From a virus: DNA of 28,894 nt. The stretch covers positions 1 through 28,894 of IMG/VR virus record IMGVR_UViG_3300010401_000072; one strand, 5' to 3'. Both the position numbers and the translations under genes were made by a program. The notes under the pieces were generated by a model. It had not been told where the DNA came from, made no database searches, and was given only the letters and a program-made list of their open reading frames with translations. The stretch's first letter is position 1, and each line of letters opens with the position of its first letter. Shown in pieces: positions 2,364 through 21,947 of this stretch.

Positions 2364-5300
2364 ATGGAAACTATAATAGATGACTTTTTAGATGAGTTTA
2401 AAGATTGGTTAGGATATGGAAGAAAACCCATAAAAAGAATAAAAACTATGGAAATAAATGATTTAGCCATTGGAAAATGGTATGAAACCGTTCCTAATGG
2501 ATATATGAAACCTTTAGTTCTTAAACATAATTGTTTAACTGCCGATAGTATATATCATGGAAGATTTATAGAAAAAAGTAATGTAGAGAACAATGATTGG
2601 TGGAAAACAGCTGTACTACTAACAGATTTAGAGGAAATTCAACAATTTTTACCAGAGAATCACGTAGATAATAAGAAGTCTAAAGAAGTAGAACTTGTTG
2701 TAGGACAATGGATAGAATTCAACAGTTATCAATCTAATGGAAGTAAAAATATAATAAAGATAAAGCAGATTCATGAGAATGGTGATATAAGTGGAAATCC
2801 TTGGTTACATCAAACTTACATGAATGGTTCTGGTACTTGGACAAAAGCTAATATGTTTAACATAAAATCTGCTTCTATGAAGGAGGTATATGAATATTTC
2901 CCTGAAGAACGTCCTAAAGAACAATCTATTGAATTTCCAAAAGATGGAAAATGTACTACATTAGACCAAAGACTATTAAAATATCTAGTAGCTAGACCAT
3001 ATACAAAAGTAGTGGGAAATGAGAAAAGAGAATCTGCTATAGGAGTTGCATGGAATTCAGGAAGTCATTGGTTTTATTTAGGTAGTTCTGAAAAACCTGA
3101 ATATACATTAGCTCAATTAGAACCTTTCTTAAAAGACATTCCTATGGATAAACCAAAGGAATTAACATCTCTTCCTGAGAAATGGTGTATTAGAGCATTA
3201 AATAATGAGCAATTTTCTATTATTAAGCCTTATTTTCAAAAATTGAAATCTCACTATAAGGATTATATTGTATCTAGTCCAAATAATGGATGGAGTAATA
3301 GAGAAATTGATAATTATACTATAAACATAGATGTTTTTCTCAGAGATGGATACATAGAACTGACATTAGATCAGTTCCGTAAATGGGTGTTAAAAGAAGA
3401 AATTAAACAAGAAATTCCCATGAAAGAAGAATATTGGATAATTATTAGTAATGGAGAGGGAATGCATTCTGATGATAAGGGTAAATTAGTTATAAAGCTG
3501 GAAAATAAACCTTCTGGTAATATTTCTCATAATTATTATCCTAGTGGCTATTATTTCAAATTTCTAGATGATGTGGAGTATTCTACTAGAGAAGGTTCTG
3601 ATTTATATGGAAATTGTGGCGTAAGGATGATTAGGAAAGCCACTCCAGAGGAAATAGAGAAACTTCTATATATCAAGAAAGAAGAGAATCTTGTAGGGAG
3701 ATATTTGAAAGCCTTAAAAGATAGACCTCAGTCAATAAGAACTATGAAAAAAGGGGACTTTCTACTAATTACTATATGGTATCCCTCAAATACAGGAACT
3801 GGTGAATTTCAAGGAAAGAAATGGTCATGGGATTTACCATATGAAGATACGTGGGAACTTATGCCACAAGGTTTCATTCCTCCTATAAATCTAGAAAAAC
3901 AAGAACAGGGATTTATTATTGGAGACATCATAACGGATGAAGAAGTATTCTTTGAATATAAAGGATTAGGTACATTAAGTTCTTTATCTACTAGTGGATT
4001 TAGAATAAGTACTTCTGTTTGGACTCGTGAAAATCAATTTTCTTTTAAAAAAGAGAAGTTGAGGAAATGTACAGAAGAAGAAACTAGATGGTATAACAAA
4101 TGTAAAGAAGCTAGTAAATTCATTCCTAAGGAAGAAGCTTTGAAATCTGAGAAAATTGTAGAAACATATAATGTAGGAGACTGGGTGGTAATTTCTAAAT
4201 GGCCTGGAATATGGACTCCCTTAGCGGGAGGAGAATATCCAGCAGATGCTAAATATCCTCTTACTGTTCAAATCAAAAAGATTCAGGATGGAAAAGACTA
4301 TAAAGCTATGTTTGATGGAAAATATGGACACTGTCTAACAGATTTAATCAAACAGAATGCTATTCGTAAGGCTTCTCTTAATGAAATCCCTGTACAAAAT
4401 ACACCAATTATGAGTAAATTTAAAATAGGTGATGAAGTAGAGCTGGTACATAGTAACTATTTTACTGATTATGATGGAATACCTAGGGATAAAATTAGAC
4501 ATGGAAGTCAACCTAGAGTAGGAGATAAGGGAAAAATAGTAGAATTTTATGATAAATATTATATTGTAGATTTACCTAATTCTAAATTGGGATATGAAGA
4601 ATCTTCTTTAAAACTTGTAAATACGTCTTCTGTTATTCCTGAATATGTAGAATGTTTGTCATGGGCTGGATATTCTCATAAAGCTGGTAAAATATATAAA
4701 GTTACCAATGAATTCATTGATTGTGAAAAAGAAGGAAGTCCTACTAAATGGGAAAATTCTAATAATTGGAGAGTTAGTACATATTCTGCATATATGGCTC
4801 AACAAGAGATTCTAAACAAAGGAAGTATTTTGGAAGAAGCCAGAAAGAAATATCCCATAGGAACTAAATTTATTTGTGTTCATCTTAGACAAGAGAAAAT
4901 AGTAAATGAGTATATTGATAATTATCTCTCTTTTGGATGTATTAGGAGTAATGGGGGAGGTTCTTGTTTATATGATAAAAACATAGGGTGGGCTATAATA
5001 GTAGAAACTCCTGCATTTAATCAAAAAGAACTCCTTTTACAAGAAGCCAAACTTAAATATCCTCCTGGTACTAAATTTGAATCACCAAGTGGAGATATAT
5101 TCACTGTATCGGACAAAAAAGATCCATATATAAATGATTTTGCTCCTAATATTATATGGAATGGTGATGGTTTAGGTAGAATTTATAATGAAGGAAAATG
5201 GAGTAGAATACTAGAATCTCCAAAATATGTAGCAGGAATAGATCCTTATGAAGGAGCAAAGGTATTTCCATATAGAATGGAAGAAAGCCATCCTATTAAT

Positions 5301-5408
5301 GTAGAACTTCTCAGTCCAAGAAAAGAGGCAAAAATTGACACCTCTGTAAATAAAGTCAGTTCAGTGAAAACAGAACTTTTAAAACGTAGTAAAGTAGTGT
5401 ATTTTTAA
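2364..5408 (+). CDS. large modular beta-repeat protein
   Basis: A 1014-residue protein with no signal peptide or membrane segment. It is a chain of roughly ten divergent units of 60-100 residues. Each opens with a 'GxW/GD..' strand (IGKWYETVPNG, VGQWIEFNSYQ, VGDWVVISKWPG, IGDEVELVHSN, IGTKFICVHL, PGTKFESPSG), continues with charged beta strands and Trp/Tyr-rich turns, and often closes with an acidic helix beginning '(K)A(T/S)xEE' (RKATPEEIEKL, RKCTEEETRW, RKASLNEIP). The pattern suggests tandem small SH3- or Tudor-like barrels. I cannot assign a function: multivalent binding to nucleic acid, protein or cell-surface ligand are all possible. It ends the first operon. ATG 2364 fits the spacing; ATG 2448 is an alternative. 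Confidence 0.6.
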   Translation: METIIDDFLDEFKDWLGYGRKPIKRIKTMEINDLAIGKWYETVPNGYMKPLVLKHNCLTADSIYHGRFIEKSNVENNDWWKTAVLLTDLEEIQQFLPENHVDNKKSKEVELVVGQWIEFNSYQSNGSKNIIKIKQIHENGDISGNPWLHQTYMNGSGTWTKANMFNIKSASMKEVYEYFPEERPKEQSIEFPKDGKCTTLDQRLLKYLVARPYTKVVGNEKRESAIGVAWNSGSHWFYLGSSEKPEYTLAQLEPFLKDIPMDKPKELTSLPEKWCIRALNNEQFSIIKPYFQKLKSHYKDYIVSSPNNGWSNREIDNYTINIDVFLRDGYIELTLDQFRKWVLKEEIKQEIPMKEEYWIIISNGEGMHSDDKGKLVIKLENKPSGNISHNYYPSGYYFKFLDDVEYSTREGSDLYGNCGVRMIRKATPEEIEKLLYIKKEENLVGRYLKALKDRPQSIRTMKKGDFLLITIWYPSNTGTGEFQGKKWSWDLPYEDTWELMPQGFIPPINLEKQEQGFIIGDIITDEEVFFEYKGLGTLSSLSTSGFRISTSVWTRENQFSFKKEKLRKCTEEETRWYNKCKEASKFIPKEEALKSEKIVETYNVGDWVVISKWPGIWTPLAGGEYPADAKYPLTVQIKKIQDGKDYKAMFDGKYGHCLTDLIKQNAIRKASLNEIPVQNTPIMSKFKIGDEVELVHSNYFTDYDGIPRDKIRHGSQPRVGDKGKIVEFYDKYYIVDLPNSKLGYEESSLKLVNTSSVIPEYVECLSWAGYSHKAGKIYKVTNEFIDCEKEGSPTKWENSNNWRVSTYSAYMAQQEILNKGSILEEARKKYPIGTKFICVHLRQEKIVNEYIDNYLSFGCIRSNGGGSCLYDKNIGWAIIVETPAFNQKELLLQEAKLKYPPGTKFESPSGDIFTVSDKKDPYINDFAPNIIWNGDGLGRIYNEGKWSRILESPKYVAGIDPYEGAKVFPYRMEESHPINVELLSPRKEAKIDTSVNKVSSVKTELLKRSKVVYF

Positions 5409-5909: not shown

Positions 5910-6605
5910 ATGGAAACAAAACCTCATTTTAATAGAAAATATTCACTAAATGAATGTTATTTTGAAAATATTGATTCTGAAGACAAAGCTTATTTCTTAG
6001 GATTGTTATATGCTGATGGGAGCTTAAATCCTAATAACTCTACTATTAGAATTATGTTACAAGAAAGAGATATTGATATTTTAAAGAAATTTCAATCTTG
6101 TATAAATTCCAATAGACCAATGAGATATATTATTACTCCTAAATCTCATCAACAAAATTGTTATAGTGTAGATACATCTAGTGGAAAAATGATGATTGAT
6201 TTACAAAAACAAGGATGTTTTATTAATAAGACTTATATATTGAAATTTCCAACAGAGGGACAAGTGCCTAATAATTTGATTCACCACTTCATTAGAGGAT
6301 ATTTTGATGGGGATGGATGTATAAATTTACATACTAAATCATCAACATTCAGTATAATAGGAACTTTAGATTTCCTAATAGAATTACAAAAAATTATAAT
6401 TAGAGAATGCGGACTAAATTTTACAAAAATACCTCCCAAGCATAAGACTAATAATATTATTTGTTATCTGAGGTATTCAGGAAATGTATCAAATTTTAAA
6501 ATTAGAGAATTTTTATATAAAGATGCTACAATTTATCTACAAAGAAAGAAAGACAAATTTGATAAAATTGTACCAAAAAAGAAAGTAAGACAATCTAATT
6601 GCTAG
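5910..6605 (+). CDS. LAGLIDADG-family homing endonuclease
   Basis: A 231-residue site-specific DNA endonuclease with both LAGLIDADG helices: YFLGLLYADGS at about 28-38 and FIRGYFDGDGC at about 127-137, each with the acidic metal-binding residue. The C-terminus carries the family's basic tail (FLYKDATIYLQRKKDKFDK). It lacks the N-terminal helix-turn-helix region of its relative at 21006, with which it shares the second motif region (KFPTE.QVP.NLI.HFIRGYFDGDG). It stands free between genes with its own promoter and has no intron or intein context that I can see. Presumed role: selfish spread by cutting endonuclease-free copies of the locus. Confidence 0.85.
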   Translation: METKPHFNRKYSLNECYFENIDSEDKAYFLGLLYADGSLNPNNSTIRIMLQERDIDILKKFQSCINSNRPMRYIITPKSHQQNCYSVDTSSGKMMIDLQKQGCFINKTYILKFPTEGQVPNNLIHHFIRGYFDGDGCINLHTKSSTFSIIGTLDFLIELQKIIIRECGLNFTKIPPKHKTNNIICYLRYSGNVSNFKIREFLYKDATIYLQRKKDKFDKIVPKKKVRQSNC

Positions 6606-10098: not shown

Positions 10099-10415
10099 AA
10101 AAATATTTAGTAACAGTAGGAGATACTAATGATGGTGATTATGACACCAAAATTAAAGAAATAACAGACGAACAGATAGAGAAATTTAAACCCATCATAG
10201 AAGCAATCAAAGCATATGAAGGAGACTATAATTTCTTAACGGGAGAAGTGGCTCAAGATCAGGATGAAGATAATGCAGAAATATTATACGGAAATATTGA
10301 AGGATTTAAAGAATTTAAATATTTTGTTCCAAATGGAGACCCTAATTACAGTGGTATACATACATTAGAATCTATTAAACTATTAGTTGTACAAGAAGAA
10401 ACACAATTGTTATGA
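10095..10415 (+). CDS. acidic hypothetical protein
   Basis: A 106-residue acidic alpha/beta protein: an initial strand (KKYLVTVGDTNDGDYD), a helix (TDEQIEKFKPIIEAIKAY), an acidic linker and a C-terminal strand region. ATG overlaps the previous stop, and its own TGA overlaps the start of the metallophosphoesterase. No catalytic motif is visible and the function is unknown. Confidence 0.6.
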   Translation: MKKYLVTVGDTNDGDYDTKIKEITDEQIEKFKPIIEAIKAYEGDYNFLTGEVAQDQDEDNAEILYGNIEGFKEFKYFVPNGDPNYSGIHTLESIKLLVVQEETQLL

Positions 10416-11011
10416 ACAGCTGGTTCACTTCTGACACTCATTATGGACATAAAAACATAGTGAGAGGAACATCTGAATGGGAAAATAAAGATAATGCTCA
10501 AAGAGTGAGAGACTTTGATACTATGGAGGAACATAATGATGCCCTTGTAAAGAGTATTAATTCTGTAGTGAAAGAAGATGATGAATTATGGCATTTAGGC
10601 GATTGGAGCTTCGGAGGGAAGGATAATATCAAGATATTCAGAGATAGGTTGAAATGTAAAAATATCCACCTTATATTTGGTAATCATGATCAACATATAG
10701 AACCCTTGAATTCTCTATATAGGGAATTATTTAAAAGTTGTCAATATGTTAAAAATCTATCATTCAAAAAAGATGGTATAAAAACAAATCTATTTCTATC
10801 TCATTATAGCCATCAAGTTTGGGCAAAATCAAATCATGACACAATTCATTTATTTGGACATTCACACGGATCGCTGAAAGGTATAGGAAAATCAATGGAT
10901 GTAGGAGTCGATACAAATAATTTATATCCATATCATCTTGAAGAAATTATTTATATTATGAAGGATATTTCAGTAGAATTTATCGATCACCATAACATTT
11001 TGACCAATTAG
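10412..11011 (+). CDS. calcineurin-like metallophosphoesterase
   Basis: A 199-residue metal-dependent phosphoesterase. All main motifs are present: I SDTHYGH (D and H at about 7-9), II HLGDWSFGG (about 63-71), III FGNHDQH (about 88-94), IV LSHYSH and V LFGHSHG. Five motifs together point to an active two-metal centre. The family hydrolyses phosphodiesters or phosphomonoesters ranging from cyclic nucleotides to DNA ends and capped nucleotides; the substrate cannot be read from sequence. It could serve nucleotide turnover or destroy host signalling nucleotides. The gene directly precedes the promoter of the HNH endonuclease. Confidence 0.85.
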   Translation: MNSWFTSDTHYGHKNIVRGTSEWENKDNAQRVRDFDTMEEHNDALVKSINSVVKEDDELWHLGDWSFGGKDNIKIFRDRLKCKNIHLIFGNHDQHIEPLNSLYRELFKSCQYVKNLSFKKDGIKTNLFLSHYSHQVWAKSNHDTIHLFGHSHGSLKGIGKSMDVGVDTNNLYPYHLEEIIYIMKDISVEFIDHHNILTN

Positions 11012-11064: not shown

Positions 11065-11589
11065 ATGTTAAAGAAATGTTGTATATGTGAATTAGACTTT
11101 CCTTCCACAATAGAGTTTTTCCATCGTAGAAAATCATCCATAGATGGACTTAGATGTGATTGTAAGTCATGTAGAAAAGAAAAAAAGAAGAAAGATTATA
11201 GTAAACCTTTAAAAAAGTGTTCAAATTGTAATATTGAAAAACCTAATACGAATGAATATTTTCATATAAAAAATGGGGGATTAAGAGCTAGAAATAGATC
11301 TCTTTGTAAAGAATGTCATAAAAGATGGTGTAGAAAGAATCATTTATTGAAAAAGTATAAAATAAGTGAAGAGGATTATGATAATTTATATAAAGAACAA
11401 GAAGGAAAATGTAAGATTTGTAACGTTCATTATAATTCTCTAGTTATAGATCATAATCATAATACAAATCAAGTTAGGTCTTTATTATGTGATAATTGTA
11501 ATACAGGGATTGGTATGTTAAAAGAAAATATAGAGATTATGAAAAGTGCGATAGAATATTTAAAGTATCATAATACAAAAACTAATTAA
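11065..11589 (+). CDS. HNH endonuclease, recombination endonuclease VII type
   Basis: A 174-residue DNA endonuclease. Two zinc-ribbon repeats (KKCCIC...CDCKSC at about 4-36, KKCSNC...LCKECH at about 50-80) precede the endonuclease VII core at about 112-155: GKCKICNVH, VIDHNHNTNQVR with the catalytic DHxH, and LLCDNCNTGIGML. T4 endonuclease VII resolves branched DNA, but free-standing phage members with extra zinc repeats usually behave as homing endonucleases. The private promoter and intergenic position favour homing. Confidence 0.85.
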   Translation: MLKKCCICELDFPSTIEFFHRRKSSIDGLRCDCKSCRKEKKKKDYSKPLKKCSNCNIEKPNTNEYFHIKNGGLRARNRSLCKECHKRWCRKNHLLKKYKISEEDYDNLYKEQEGKCKICNVHYNSLVIDHNHNTNQVRSLLCDNCNTGIGMLKENIEIMKSAIEYLKYHNTKTN

Positions 11590-12043: not shown

Positions 12044-12075
12044 TTTGTCATTATGACAATATTGATTTATCTTTG
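12044..12075 (+). promoter_or_regulatory. Bacteroidota-type promoter for GIY-YIG endonuclease
   Basis: TTTG at 12044-12047, exactly 20 bases, then TATCTTTG at 12068-12075. Only 4 bases separate the -7 element from the ATG at 12080, so the transcript would be leaderless or nearly so. This also rules out an upstream start at 12053, which would lie inside the promoter. Confidence 0.75.
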
Positions 12076-12079
12076 TAGA

Positions 12080-12652
12080 ATGAAAACAAAAGGTAAATCA
12101 GGAGTTTATATCATTCAAAATATCATAAATCACAAAGTCTATATAGGTGCATCTAATAACACTTATAAAAGACTTTGTGATCATAAAATGTGGCTCCGTA
12201 AGAATAATCATGACAATATCCATCTACAGGCATCTTTTAACAAATATGGAGAAAAGAACTTTACATTTGAGATTTTAGAAGACTGTAATAGAGAATATAT
12301 ATTTTCACAGGAAAATTACTGGTGTAATTTGCTAAACTCTCATGATAGGAGATTTGGTTACAACATTGATCCCACTTCTCCTTATGGAAAAATGGCTGTT
12401 TCTAATGAAACCAAAGAAAGAATGTCTAAAGGAGCTGCAAAAAGAATAGTATATGTATATACTTTATATGGAGATTATTTTGGAGTTTTTACGGATTTAT
12501 ATAAATGCGGAAAATATTTTAGGACAGATGCTCCTAATATTCATAGGAAGATGAATATCACGCAAAATAAGAAGAATTTGATAGATTCTGAAATAAGCAA
12601 ATATCTACTTGTTGATAAAGATATAGATATTTCTCATATAAAGAACAATTGA
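12080..12652 (+). CDS. GIY-YIG homing endonuclease, C-terminally truncated
   Basis: A 190-residue GIY-YIG nuclease: SGVYIIQN at about 7-14, VYIGASNN at about 20-27, then the catalytic-region RLCDHKMWLR, the EKNFTFEILEDC strand and Asn-containing RRFGYNID end of the domain. A NUMOD-like DNA-binding module follows (YVYTLYGDYFGVF and on). The frame then meets TGA at 12650-12652, but an additional NUMOD-like module continues in the same frame to 12835. The gene sits directly before the DNA polymerase gene, a classic homing site. The nuclease domain itself looks intact. Confidence 0.85.
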   Translation: MKTKGKSGVYIIQNIINHKVYIGASNNTYKRLCDHKMWLRKNNHDNIHLQASFNKYGEKNFTFEILEDCNREYIFSQENYWCNLLNSHDRRFGYNIDPTSPYGKMAVSNETKERMSKGAAKRIVYVYTLYGDYFGVFTDLYKCGKYFRTDAPNIHRKMNITQNKKNLIDSEISKYLLVDKDIDISHIKNN

Positions 12653-15359: not shown

Positions 15360-15580
15360 TGGAAACATTAACAAATTTTGATTTTAAATTACATGTTAAC
15401 CAGATTAGGAAACAGAGGGATATTTACAAACAAAAATATAAGAAGGATTTGAAAGAAATCTACTTGAAAATTAACATGGACAATTTAACAGATCATCAAG
15501 TGTATTTAATTCATTATATTCCTGTTATAGAGAAATTGACAAAAATTAAAATAAATATCTATGAATTACAAAAGAATTAA
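15359..15580 (+). CDS. small basic helical protein
   Basis: A 73-residue protein with a long, Lys-rich helix in the first half (HVNQIRKQRDIYKQKYKKDL) and a second helix afterwards. The last 20 bases overlap the start of the PRPP-synthetase-like gene, so translation is probably coupled. Function unknown. Confidence 0.55.
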   Translation: METLTNFDFKLHVNQIRKQRDIYKQKYKKDLKEIYLKINMDNLTDHQVYLIHYIPVIEKLTKIKINIYELQKN

Positions 15581-16316
15581 ATACCCAGATGGACAAATAG
15601 GAGCAGAAATAGTGAATATAACACATCCTTATATAATAAATGAAAGAATTAACTCCTATGAGGACTTATTCTTTATAAAGAGTATATGTGATGCTTTAGA
15701 CTTCGCTAATGTTAAAAATCGTCATTTAGTAATACCTTGTCTATTTGGACAAAGGAGTGATAGGAGATTTCTTCCTACAAACTCATTTGATTTAAAAATT
15801 ATTGCAGATTTCATCAATTCCTGTGGATTCATGGATGTGAAGATATTTGATCCTCATTCTGATGTATCTTTGGCTCTAATTCATAATTCTAGCAAGGTTT
15901 CTCCTGTTGAGAAAATAGAACTAGCTATAAAGGATATAAATGAGGATATTATATTAATAAGTCCAGATGCAGGAGCTTATAAGAAAGTCTTTGAAATTGG
16001 TCAGAAATTCAATATGGAAGTGACAGCAGCAGTGAAGCATAGAGATTTAGCTGGAAAGATAGAGCTTAAGTTTATCGGAGATGTTAAAGGTAAAAACTGT
16101 CTTATTTTAGATGATTTATGTGATGGAGGGTATACATTTGTTATGCTGTCACAACAATTAAAAGACCAAGGAGCAAATAATATATATTTATATGTGAGTC
16201 ATGGATATTTCAGTAAAGGATTTGATGAATTAAAGAAGAATATAAAGAAGATTTATTGTACTAATTCTGTAAAGGATGTAAATGATGAATTTGTAAAACA
16301 ATTTAAAATAGTATGA
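15561..16316 (+). CDS. phosphoribosyl-pyrophosphate synthetase-like enzyme (possible Adps)
   Basis: A 251-residue member of the Prs family, which moves pyrophosphate from ATP to a ribose 5-phosphate. Visible motifs: ATP-site loop PCLFGQRSDRRF (59-70), FDPHSD metal site (96-101), SPDAGAYKK (134-142), KHRD catalytic loop (159-162) and the ribose-phosphate loop ILDDLCDGGYTF (182-193). It is about 60 residues shorter than bacterial Prs and lacks the usual allosteric regions. With a NAMPT-like gene two genes downstream it could make PRPP for NMN synthesis, or act as the NARP1 enzyme Adps, which pyrophosphorylates ADP-ribose. Sequence alone does not decide. Confidence 0.85.
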   Translation: MNYKRIKYPDGQIGAEIVNITHPYIINERINSYEDLFFIKSICDALDFANVKNRHLVIPCLFGQRSDRRFLPTNSFDLKIIADFINSCGFMDVKIFDPHSDVSLALIHNSSKVSPVEKIELAIKDINEDIILISPDAGAYKKVFEIGQKFNMEVTAAVKHRDLAGKIELKFIGDVKGKNCLILDDLCDGGYTFVMLSQQLKDQGANNIYLYVSHGYFSKGFDELKKNIKKIYCTNSVKDVNDEFVKQFKIV

Positions 16317-16720
16317 AAAAAGACGAATATTTAGAAGAAAATGCATCTTTTAACAGGTTATTAACAGAATATGATAAATATAAATCTCTTACTATAGGAT
16401 TTGATTTCGATGGAACTATTCATGATTATCATAAAACTGGAGCCACTTATGAGAGTACTATTCAACTATTAAAAGATTTGAAAGAAATTGGGTGTAAACT
16501 TGTATGTTGGACAGCTTATGAAGACTTAAAATACGTTAGGAAGTTTCTAGAAGATTGGAATATTCCATTTGATGGGATTAATGAAGGAGGAATTCCCCTA
16601 CCTTGGGAAACTAAAAAACCCTTCTTTTCAGCTTTATTAGATGATAGAGCTGGATTAATACAAGTTTATTCAGAATTAAAATTATTAACAGAAACTATAA
16701 AATCAAGAACAAATGTTTAA
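16313..16720 (+). CDS. HAD-superfamily phosphatase
   Basis: A 135-residue compact HAD hydrolase. Motif I FDFDGTIHDY (nucleophile and acid/base Asp), motif II CWTAYED (Thr), a Lys region WETKKPFF and motif IV LLDDRAG are all present, so it should be active. There is no cap domain, so it may act on large substrates or nucleotides. It overlaps the genes on both sides by 4 and 8 bases, locked between the Prs-like and NAMPT-like genes. It may therefore remove a phosphate from an intermediate or by-product of the NAD+ pathway. The substrate is unknown. Confidence 0.8.
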   Translation: MKKDEYLEENASFNRLLTEYDKYKSLTIGFDFDGTIHDYHKTGATYESTIQLLKDLKEIGCKLVCWTAYEDLKYVRKFLEDWNIPFDGINEGGIPLPWETKKPFFSALLDDRAGLIQVYSELKLLTETIKSRTNV

Positions 16721-18239
16721 ACCAATTAGTTTATACTACACCGATGGTTATAAAGTCGGTCATAAGAGAATGTTAGCTCCAGGTACAGATTATTTAGCTG
16801 GTAGCTGGATACCTAGAACTATTAAATATGCTCCTAAGGGAATAGAGAAAATCACATCTTTTGGTCAGCAATTGACAATGAGATGGTTAAATGATGAATT
16901 TCGAGAGAATTTCTTCAATGTTCCTTTAGAAGCAGCTCAAAAGTTTGGTAAGGATATGAGTGCATATTTAATGCAACCTTATGATGCTAAACATTTTGAA
17001 GACTTGCATAAATTAGGATATTTACCTATTAAAGTGAAAGCTATTCCGGAGGGAATTGAAACTTTTCCTAATATACCACATATGACTTTCATTAATACTG
17101 TTAAGGGATATGCATGGTTAACTCTATATTTGGAAACAATTATTAGCTCATTAGCATGGAAACCTTCTACATCAGCTACAATTGCTCGTCAATATAAGAA
17201 AAATGCTATAAAATGGGTGACAAAAACTGATCCTTCTAATTTATGGCTTACAGATTTTATGTGTCATGATTTTAGTGCTAGAGGACTATCTCCTTGGGAT
17301 ATGTTATCTAGTGGACTTGGACATGCAACTAGTCATAAAGGCTCAGATACACTTATTATTATACCAGGAGCACGTTATTTCTATAATGAAGGGGAGGATG
17401 ATATGCCTATTTTCTCTGTAAATGCTTCTGAACACTCTGTAAGCACCACTAAGATCTTCACTGTAGGTGAAAAACAAATGATTTTAGATTGGTTGAAAGA
17501 AATACCAGAAGGTATATTTTCAATGGTGGCAGATACATTCAGTTTATGGGAATTCATTCAATATTTAAAAGATCCAGAAGTTAAAACTGCTGTGTTAGCT
17601 AGAACTGGTAAATTAGTAGTTAGGCCAGATAGTGGTAATCCTGTAGATATTATTTGTGGATTAAATTCAAAGTATATTGGCAAAGAGTTTGAAGATTCAG
17701 ATGGTGCTCAAAGACAAGAGTATTGGGTCACAAAAAGTGAAGCAGCTCATCCGTCATATAAAGGTGTAATAGAACTTCTTTGGGATATATTTGGAGGTAC
17801 AGTGAATGAACAAGGATATAAAGTTCTTGATCCTCATATTGGAGCTATTTATGGAGATAGTATCAATATAGATAGACAGGTAGAAATCTATGAAAGATTA
17901 GCAGCTAAAGGATTTGCAGCCACAAATATCGTATTAGGTGTAGGAAGCTTTACTTATCAAATGAACACAAGAGATACTCTTGGCTTTGCTGCTAAAGGAA
18001 CTTGGTTTCAAGCTAATGATAAAGAATACAATATTTACAAAGATCCAGTTACTGACGATGGTAGTAAGAAATCTTTAAAGGGATTATTGGCTGTTCTACA
18101 GGATGAAAAAGGAGAATATTATTGTAAAACTGAATGTACTCATGAAGAAGAGAATTCTGGAGTATTACAGACGATATTCCAAGATGGAAAATTTTTTAAT
18201 CAAATAAGCTTAACAGAAATTAGAGCCAAAATCAACTAA
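16713..18239 (+). CDS. nicotinamide phosphoribosyltransferase-like enzyme (possible Namat)
   Basis: A 508-residue NAMPT homologue, full length for the family. Recognised regions: TDGYKVGHK near the N-terminus (10-18), the DFSARGLSP nicotinamide/phosphoribose region (186-194), HKGSDT (208-213), the active-site His in ASEHS (His241), RPDSGNP (304-310), GDSINID (381-387) and a GVGSF.Y region before the C-terminus. NAMPT joins nicotinamide to PRPP to give NMN; in the phage NARP1 pathway its relative Namat joins nicotinamide to ADP-ribose pyrophosphate, giving NAD+ directly. No NMN adenylyltransferase gene is visible in the window, which makes the direct route attractive but is not proof. Confidence 0.9.
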   Translation: MFKPISLYYTDGYKVGHKRMLAPGTDYLAGSWIPRTIKYAPKGIEKITSFGQQLTMRWLNDEFRENFFNVPLEAAQKFGKDMSAYLMQPYDAKHFEDLHKLGYLPIKVKAIPEGIETFPNIPHMTFINTVKGYAWLTLYLETIISSLAWKPSTSATIARQYKKNAIKWVTKTDPSNLWLTDFMCHDFSARGLSPWDMLSSGLGHATSHKGSDTLIIIPGARYFYNEGEDDMPIFSVNASEHSVSTTKIFTVGEKQMILDWLKEIPEGIFSMVADTFSLWEFIQYLKDPEVKTAVLARTGKLVVRPDSGNPVDIICGLNSKYIGKEFEDSDGAQRQEYWVTKSEAAHPSYKGVIELLWDIFGGTVNEQGYKVLDPHIGAIYGDSINIDRQVEIYERLAAKGFAATNIVLGVGSFTYQMNTRDTLGFAAKGTWFQANDKEYNIYKDPVTDDGSKKSLKGLLAVLQDEKGEYYCKTECTHEEENSGVLQTIFQDGKFFNQISLTEIRAKIN

Positions 18240-21005: not shown

Positions 21006-21947
21006 ATGACTAATAAAGAAATAAAAGAGAAAGAAAAAAGGCAAAAAATTGCTGAAAAACTAAAAGAAACTAACAATTTCAAGAGAATATCACAAGAATT
21101 AAATGTATGTGAATGGTTAGTCAGCAAAGTAGCTAAATCTATAGGAGTAGAAAATAGATTATCTAGAGTTAAAAATTCAATTCCTGATATGGAAAGATTA
21201 TTTAACGAAGGTTATAACATAACCGATATTGGTAAAAAACTAGATATTAAATATAATGTAGTAGGTAAATATCTACGAAAATTGGGTTATAAATATTCCT
21301 ATTGTAATAAAAAGTCGATAAATTCTAAAGTTTTTGAGAAAATAGATACAGAAGAAAAAGCTTATTGGTTAGGATTTATTTATGCTGATGGTTGTATAAC
21401 AAGGAACAATACTTTTGAAATAACTTTACAAGAACAAGATTTATTTCATTTACAGAAACTTAAGATATTCTTATCATATGAAGGTGAAATAAAATATAAA
21501 TCGAAAGTAAAGGCACATAGACTTATGTTCGGAGATACAAAAATTTACAACGACTTAAATAAACTAGGGTGTACCCCTAGGAAATCTTTAACTCTAAAAT
21601 TTCCTACAGAAAGTCAAGTTCCTATAAATCTAATTAAACATTTCATCAGAGGATACTTTGATGGAGATGGGTCAATTCATCTAGTACATGGAAAAACTAG
21701 TAATACATACAATGCAAATTGTAGTATATTAGGAACATTTGATTTTTTGAATAAATTGAAAAAAGTATTAGAGAATAATGAAGTAAATAATGTATCTAAG
21801 ATAAGAGAAACTACAAGTAGGGCTTTCTCTCTAAATGTATTTTCAAGCATACATAAACCTAATTTTTTAAATTTTTTGTATAAAGATGCTAATATTTATT
21901 TGGAAAGAAAGTATGAAAGATATAAAAAGATATTTTACAATAGATAA
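21006..21947 (+). CDS. LAGLIDADG homing endonuclease with N-terminal HTH domains
   Basis: A 313-residue endonuclease. Two helix-turn-helix-like units open the protein (about 22-50, FKRISQELNVCEWLVSKVAK, and 63-95, GYNITDIGKKLDIKYNVVG), then LAGLIDADG helices YWLGFIYADGC (120-130) and HFIRGYFDGDG (212-222), and the basic end (FLYKDANIYLERKYERYKK). It is a clear paralogue of the gene at 5910, which lacks the N-terminal DNA-binding units. It sits 3 bases before the SF2 helicase start and has its own promoter, fitting insertion beside an essential gene. Confidence 0.85.
   Translation: MTNKEIKEKEKRQKIAEKLKETNNFKRISQELNVCEWLVSKVAKSIGVENRLSRVKNSIPDMERLFNEGYNITDIGKKLDIKYNVVGKYLRKLGYKYSYCNKKSINSKVFEKIDTEEKAYWLGFIYADGCITRNNTFEITLQEQDLFHLQKLKIFLSYEGEIKYKSKVKAHRLMFGDTKIYNDLNKLGCTPRKSLTLKFPTESQVPINLIKHFIRGYFDGDGSIHLVHGKTSNTYNANCSILGTFDFLNKLKKVLENNEVNNVSKIRETTSRAFSLNVFSSIHKPNFLNFLYKDANIYLERKYERYKKIFYNR

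Follow-up and report, generated by a model that had tools for sequence, protein, structure and literature searches.

NARP1 is the closest described relative of the locus presented here. It is known from the phages SPbetaL1, Bas63, ICP1 (NrsAB), and DyoEdafos, and from the chromosome of Paenibacillus foliorum, where it has been reported and shown to be active (PMC12774641). The locus shares with these members both enzymes, adjacent genes, the Namat catalytic core, and, except at one position, the adenine clamp. It differs from them in having a HAD gene between the pair and a methionine in place of one clamp aromatic. Judging from the families to which they belong, Adps would convert ADP-ribose and ATP to ADP-ribose pyrophosphate (ADPR-PP), and Namat would join ADPR-PP to nicotinamide, giving NAD+ directly. 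Together, the pair would reverse NAD+ cleavage by host defences.

Additional genes have been described at NARP1 loci. RyDEP of DyoEdafos, a RyR-domain glycosidase, was shown to supply ADP-ribose (PMC13232231), and a macro domain protein of phage Adele was proposed to be an ADP-ribose supplier (PMC12846349). The present locus resembles these in having an extra gene, but neither of the two is a HAD. Canonical phage salvage (NadV/NAMPT and NadM, KVP40 type) is similar in its NAMPT fold and in its presumed NAD+ supply during infection. However, it falls outside the Namat clade, does not have the clamp residues, and requires an NMN adenylyltransferase.

Gene layout

The window, which is the whole 28.9-kb stretch of DNA that was analysed, is a virus record with a GC content of 29.9% and is possibly a fragment. 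The preliminary description had placed a Prs-like, HAD, and NAMPT-like trio at 15561-18239. Three open reading frames on the same strand, with overlaps of 4 and 8 bp, were indeed found there. The Adps and Namat genes are in one operon with overlapping frames and the HAD gene between them.

15561..16316, + strand: predicted Adps (ADP-ribose pyrophosphate synthetase), 251 aa; phrog_619 and side of the tree
16313..16316, + strand: ATGA overlap of 4 bp, Adps stop and HAD start; open reading frame coordinates
16313..16720, + strand: predicted HAD phosphatase of the capless type (135 aa), third gene of the trio and recurrent; phrog_1238, AlphaFold model, and linkage
16713..16720, + strand: overlap of 8 bp, HAD end and Namat start; open reading frame coordinates
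16713..18239, + strand: predicted Namat (nicotinamide ADP-ribose transferase), 508 aa; solved relative SPbetaL1 Namat and clade

No Rfam or tRNA match was obtained in the window, and promoter and terminator scans gave results no better than shuffled sequence. The host of the phage is likely a member of the Bacteroidota, since crAss-like phages and a Maribacter phage have the closest counterparts to the DNA polymerase of the window (approximately 30% identity).

Other genes are present in the window. An open reading frame of 1014 aa (2364-5408) has no Pfam, PHROG, or phage-collection match. Two LAGLIDADG-type endonucleases (5910-6605 and 21006-21947), a GIY-YIG protein (12053-12652), and an endonuclease VII homologue (11065-11589) were identified, as was a calcineurin-like phosphoesterase (10412-11011, phrog_547). 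Near a relative of the latter (locus L193), there are genes for Adps and Namat at a distance of about 2.3 kb but no HAD.

The predicted Adps and Namat proteins

The first protein contains Pribosyl_synth and Pribosyltran_N domains (Pfam) and matches phrog_619 (PHROGs, E 5e-59). In the tree, it lies on the Adps side of a 100% branch, away from classic Prs. The preliminary description called it a short PRPP-synthetase relative, and its length of 251 aa is genuine, with Tenacibaculum and Polaribacter homologues of 252 aa. A truncated Prs was ruled out, as 251-252 aa is the normal length for this Adps branch. PADLOC gave only weak matches for this protein, to other phosphoribosyltransferase-type models, and no match for Namat or the HAD. 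The substrate loop was located by alignment.

16110..16136, + strand: Adps substrate loop DDLCDGGYT, residues 184-192; the classic Prs loop is DDxxDTGGT

This contrast between the Adps and Prs loops is a comparison made in the present analysis. The loop supports the Adps assignment but does not define it, because the SPbetaL1 Adps is an exception; its loop is DDLSSFGGT, unlike that of the window.

The third protein was identified as an NAPRTase (PF04095, E 7.5e-31) and as phrog_448 (E 2e-151). Its closest solved relative is the SPbetaL1 Namat (9W5X/9W5W, E 1e-107), with NAMPT far behind (1e-45). In a tree of 29 sequences, it groups with SPbetaL1 Namat, ICP1 NrsB, and the proteins of momo and OhShagHennessy, and four canonical NAMPTs lie opposite this clade across a 100/100 branch. 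A larger tree was also built, and there this protein likewise groups with Namat, away from classic NAMPT. In these comparisons, momo (a relative of Bas63), OhShagHennessy (a relative of DyoEdafos), and K5 stood in for the Bas63, DyoEdafos, and Adele proteins. The following Namat features were located by alignment.

16824..16829, + strand: selectivity-clamp loop K38-Y39, Bas63 type by the rule in PMC12774641
17346..17348, + strand: Asp212, the nicotinamide-reading Asp (D215 of SPbetaL1 Namat)
17433..17435, + strand: His241, the catalytic His
17943..17975, + strand: clamp-helix motif GSFTYQMNTRD, residues 411-421, fitting the motif in PMC12774641 except for Met

Every published catalytic residue of Namat is present in the window protein when it is mapped onto SPbetaL1 Namat. 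The stacking residue of the clamp loop is present as K38-Y39, and in Bas63 the stacking type is also a lysine and then the next residue, as described in PMC12774641. The same paper gives the clamp-helix signature as GSX-Phi-X-Phi-X-Phi-TRD. The window protein has the Namat-specific serine and aromatic of this helix (S412 and F413), so that position 3 of the motif is aromatic, and at position 7 it has Met417 instead of Tyr, the second of the two aromatics that stack on adenine. Position 7 also varies among the reference rows (His, Cys). In Namats from crAss-like phages and from a number of bacteria (L002, L003, L043, L071, L086, L173, L174, and L176), the nicotinamide-reading position holds Glu and not Asp.

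The preliminary description had proposed a NARP1 pair and had named placement against classic Prs and NAMPT as a check on it. This check did not refute the proposal. Both enzymes were found in well-supported clades with tested Adps and Namat or their relatives, and they cluster with these instead of the classic enzymes. The preliminary description had seen no NMN adenylyltransferase, and this holds for the window. A search for PF01467 nucleotidyltransferases gave no match there, nor in five related phages with complete genomes (DAC15, cr126_1, PTm1, Lbo-JY46, and Phass-1). The same search gave matches in 14 of 14 control genomes, and some PF01467 protein was found in 10 of the 22 searched records. 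As far as sequence can indicate, the two proteins are almost certainly Adps and Namat. It is well supported that the pair would be a new member of NARP1, because of the clade placement, the Adps-type loop, the Namat clamp (apart from Met417), and the lack of an NMN adenylyltransferase in the window.

The HAD protein

The HAD protein belongs to phrog_1238 (E 2e-21) and has no Pfam match at E <= 0.01. Four motifs were identified.

16403..16417, + strand: motif I, DFDGT, residues 31-35 (D31/D33), conserved among 72 HAD clusters
16511..16513, + strand: motif II, Thr67; Thr in 60 and Ser in 11 of the 72 clusters
16616..16618, + strand: motif III, Lys102, conserved in 70 of the 72 clusters
16640..16645, + strand: motif IV, Asp110-Asp111, conserved in 71 of the 72 clusters

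The catalytic motifs of the trio had been described as intact, and this was confirmed for all three proteins, including the Namat residues mapped onto SPbetaL1 Namat and the conserved HAD motifs. The AlphaFold model of the HAD is confident (pLDDT 93.9) and has a Rossmann-like fold, which together with the DxD, T/S, K, and DD motifs gives the features of the HAD superfamily. Since the catalytic Asp pair, the Thr/Ser, the Lys, and the Asp-Asp are conserved, phosphatase activity is predicted for this protein.

The best structural match of the model is BT_0820 (2obb), also a HAD protein. T4 Pnkp and a D-arabinose-1,5-diphosphate phosphatase from a phage came next, with weak matches. The BT0820 family (NF046079) is the closest match by sequence profile as well as by fold. 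However, the window’s HAD has a longer N-terminal helix, conserved R15, L16, and E19, and a NARP1 context. Membership in this family was rejected, as the score was 21.3 bits against a curated cut-off of 165. No substrate was found for BT_0820, and the papers searched gave nothing relevant on BT0820 or AfhF. The label “phosphoheptose isomerase” that is attached to the HAD family in phrog_1238 and in RefSeq records looks like a misannotation.

Linkage of the HAD to Adps and Namat

The HAD gene is found beside its partners in the nearest annotated phages. The order is Namat-HAD-Adps in the crAss-like phages DAC15 and cr126_1, and Adps-Namat-HAD in Phass-1. HAD-Adps was found in Lak and HAD-Namat in PTm1. 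IMG/VR was searched by the HAD alignment alone, and the matches were clustered at 80% identity (n=60). With a query alignment that was built from five operon members and may bias toward operon-type HADs, both Adps and Namat were found within 6 kb of the HAD in 43 of the 60 non-redundant phage clusters. Neither partner was near the HAD in 14. A scan of GTDB genomes with the HAD gave 71 loci in 47 HAD clusters, 33 of which have both partners within 6 kb; these are mainly from Bacteroidota and Bacillota.

Five gene orders were seen: Adps-HAD-Namat (28 phage and 19 bacterial), Adps-Namat-HAD, Namat-HAD-Adps, Namat-Adps-HAD, and HAD-Adps-Namat. Among the clusters with both partners, the HAD lies within 100 bp of one of them in 37 of 43 from phages and 30 of 33 from bacteria, so that the genes usually overlap or are this close. 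The runner-up family of coding-strand neighbours reaches only 10 of the 72 phage loci near the HAD. These neighbour-family counts serve as the linkage control, because the window’s own neighbour genes had too few relatives in viral contigs to give a rate. One such relative (L191), 63% identical to the helicase downstream of the trio, has neither Adps nor HAD nor Namat within 6 kb.

The HAD tree shows nine or more changes, on starred branches, in whether both partners are present, and it intermixes virus rows with bacterial ones (15 changes). On these sequence comparisons, the linkage of the HAD is greater than shared ancestry of a single locus would give; linkage is not proof of function. The HAD model, which does match elsewhere, had no match in the complete SPbetaL1 and ICP1 genomes, nor in those of relatives of Bas63 and DyoEdafos. 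Thus, the HAD appears to be an accessory that is not needed for the two core steps, because SPbetaL1 and ICP1 are without it.

The preliminary description had suggested the HAD as an added component, and its linkage in phages and bacteria supports this. The HAD is very likely a genuine third component of NARP1. No report of a HAD in NARP1 operons was found in the main texts of the papers searched, among which the first NARP1 publication was not. The NARP1 pair is already known; what is new is the HAD gene that recurs with it.

Bacterial operons

The NARP-type HAD is also an accessory in bacterial genomes. One neighbour family occurs in 41 bacterial loci, and the member that was tested contains Nudix and NrtR winged-helix domains. 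NrtR-type regulators are reported as sensors of ADP-ribose (PMC9503650). Proteins of the ADP-ribosylglycohydrolase, NADAR, macro, and Nuc_deoxyri_tr2 families are rarer neighbours; for each family, Pfam confirmed one member. Genes of the NADAR type were seen near the trio in L088, L089, L096, L138 (the Pfam-confirmed member), L148, L152, and L181, and ADP-ribosylglycohydrolase genes likewise recur near it in bacterial loci. The Nuc_deoxyri_tr2 family, tested with its member in L155, recurs beside the trio in L011, L012, L016, L125, L155, and others, and a family that resembles it recurs in 10 phage loci. Neighbours of this type can possibly be ADP-ribose or nucleoside glycosidases. The macro and HAD genes do not appear to be simple substitutes for one another, since both are present in L121 and L138.

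A HAD beside the Paenibacillus foliorum NARP1 was not mentioned in the accessible text of PMC12774641. Some HAD relatives are located away from NAD genes. In three Mucilaginibacter genomes, the HAD is near a canonical NadV/NAMPT-Prs-NadM cluster, 130 bp downstream in one and with genes between in the other two. In the family to which Flavobacterium cheniae belongs, only two of 249 genomes have a strong HAD match (E below 1e-40), and over half have weaker ones, probably to other, BT0820-like HADs.

Possible substrates of the HAD

The HAD would remove the phosphate from a phosphorylated ADP-ribose and so provide ADP-ribose, the substrate of Adps. Two candidates are ADP-ribose-1''-phosphate, which could come from ADPR-PP decay or RNA repair, and 2'-phospho-ADP-ribose, which could come from cleaved NADP+. 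An ADP-ribose phosphate is suggested because dephosphorylation would yield what Adps uses, because some of the bacterial operons also contain enzymes that release ADP-ribose, and because ADP-ribose is supplied at NARP1 loci by RyDEP (shown) and by the Adele macro protein (proposed). The choice of substrate is the weakest part of the proposal and is tentative, at somewhat less than an even chance. The whole proposal, a NARP1 operon with a dedicated HAD that most likely restores ADP-ribose from a phosphorylated form, is put forward just as tentatively.

A serious rival is that the HAD of the same operon destroys a by-product, either PPi from Namat or AMP from Adps, and thereby pulls the pathway forward. 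Both arise in the NARP1 and the canonical routes, which would explain the HAD near the canonical Mucilaginibacter cluster. However, cells already have a pyrophosphatase and AMP-using enzymes, and this reading is considered unlikely. No capless HAD of 135 aa is known to have PPi as its substrate.

It is slightly less likely that the HAD is a separate counter-defence gene acting on another immune or stress metabolite, which could be a nucleotide, the end of an RNA, or a signal molecule that carries phosphate. The T4 Pnkp phosphatase part, a weak fold neighbour, acts on RNA and DNA ends. Counter-defence genes cluster in phages, and NADAR and deoxyribosyltransferase-like genes recur here. The HAD, however, is linked to Adps and Namat and not to a varied counter-defence set, and this linkage persists in bacterial chromosomes.

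That the HAD is an unrelated passenger, kept by the conserved gene order of related phages, is very improbable. It could draw on the operon-derived query alignment, on the 14 phage clusters with no nearby partner, and on the relatives away from NAD genes. It is opposed by the five gene orders, the several bacterial phyla, the overlapping frames, the lack of any other neighbour family with comparable linkage, the L191 helicase relative with no trio, and the repeated changes of context on the HAD tree. Least probable of all is that the pair carries out classic NAD salvage, in which PRPP would come from Prs and NMN from NAMPT. Although the two are homologous to Prs and NAMPT and Namat keeps some NMN-forming activity in vitro (PMC12774641), membership in the classic families was rejected, as both proteins fall beyond those clades, the DDxxDTGGT loop is lacking, the adenine-clamp residues are present apart from one, and the window has no NMN adenylyltransferase.

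A predicted nicotinate branch

Nicotinamidase and NadE (NAD synthetase) genes were found together with Adps, Namat, and HAD in four loci: L006 (Phass-1), L073, L179 (Clostridium tagluense), and L181 (Thomasclavelia cocleata). Among 106 Namat rows, only these four have Ala or Ser at the equivalent of D215. The equivalent Asp219 is reported to determine the substrate specificity of NAMPT (PMC7096376). The four loci are predicted to be a nicotinate-using form of NARP1. In this route, nicotinamide would be converted to nicotinate, which with ADPR-PP would give NaAD, and NadE would then produce NAD+. The Namats of the four form one clade (94%), so one origin is probable, not four. This version does not apply to the window, because the window’s Namat keeps the Asp.

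Significance

More tentative still than the ADP-ribose phosphate proposal is the wider picture, in which NARP1 in phages and bacteria would often be a three-enzyme system, with the HAD recovering ADP-ribose from phosphorylated forms that are no substrate for Adps, for instance those left by NADP+ cleavage or ADPR-PP decay, and would also have a nicotinate-using sister branch. NARP1 has been described as a two-enzyme system. A recurrent phosphatase points to a metabolite of NAD+-depleting immunity that the pair alone cannot use, and the HAD finding defines a short panel of substrates for the phosphatase. The HAD gene further connects the NARP1 of phages with bacterial chromosomal operons for ADP-ribose recycling, which lie beside NrtR-type regulators.
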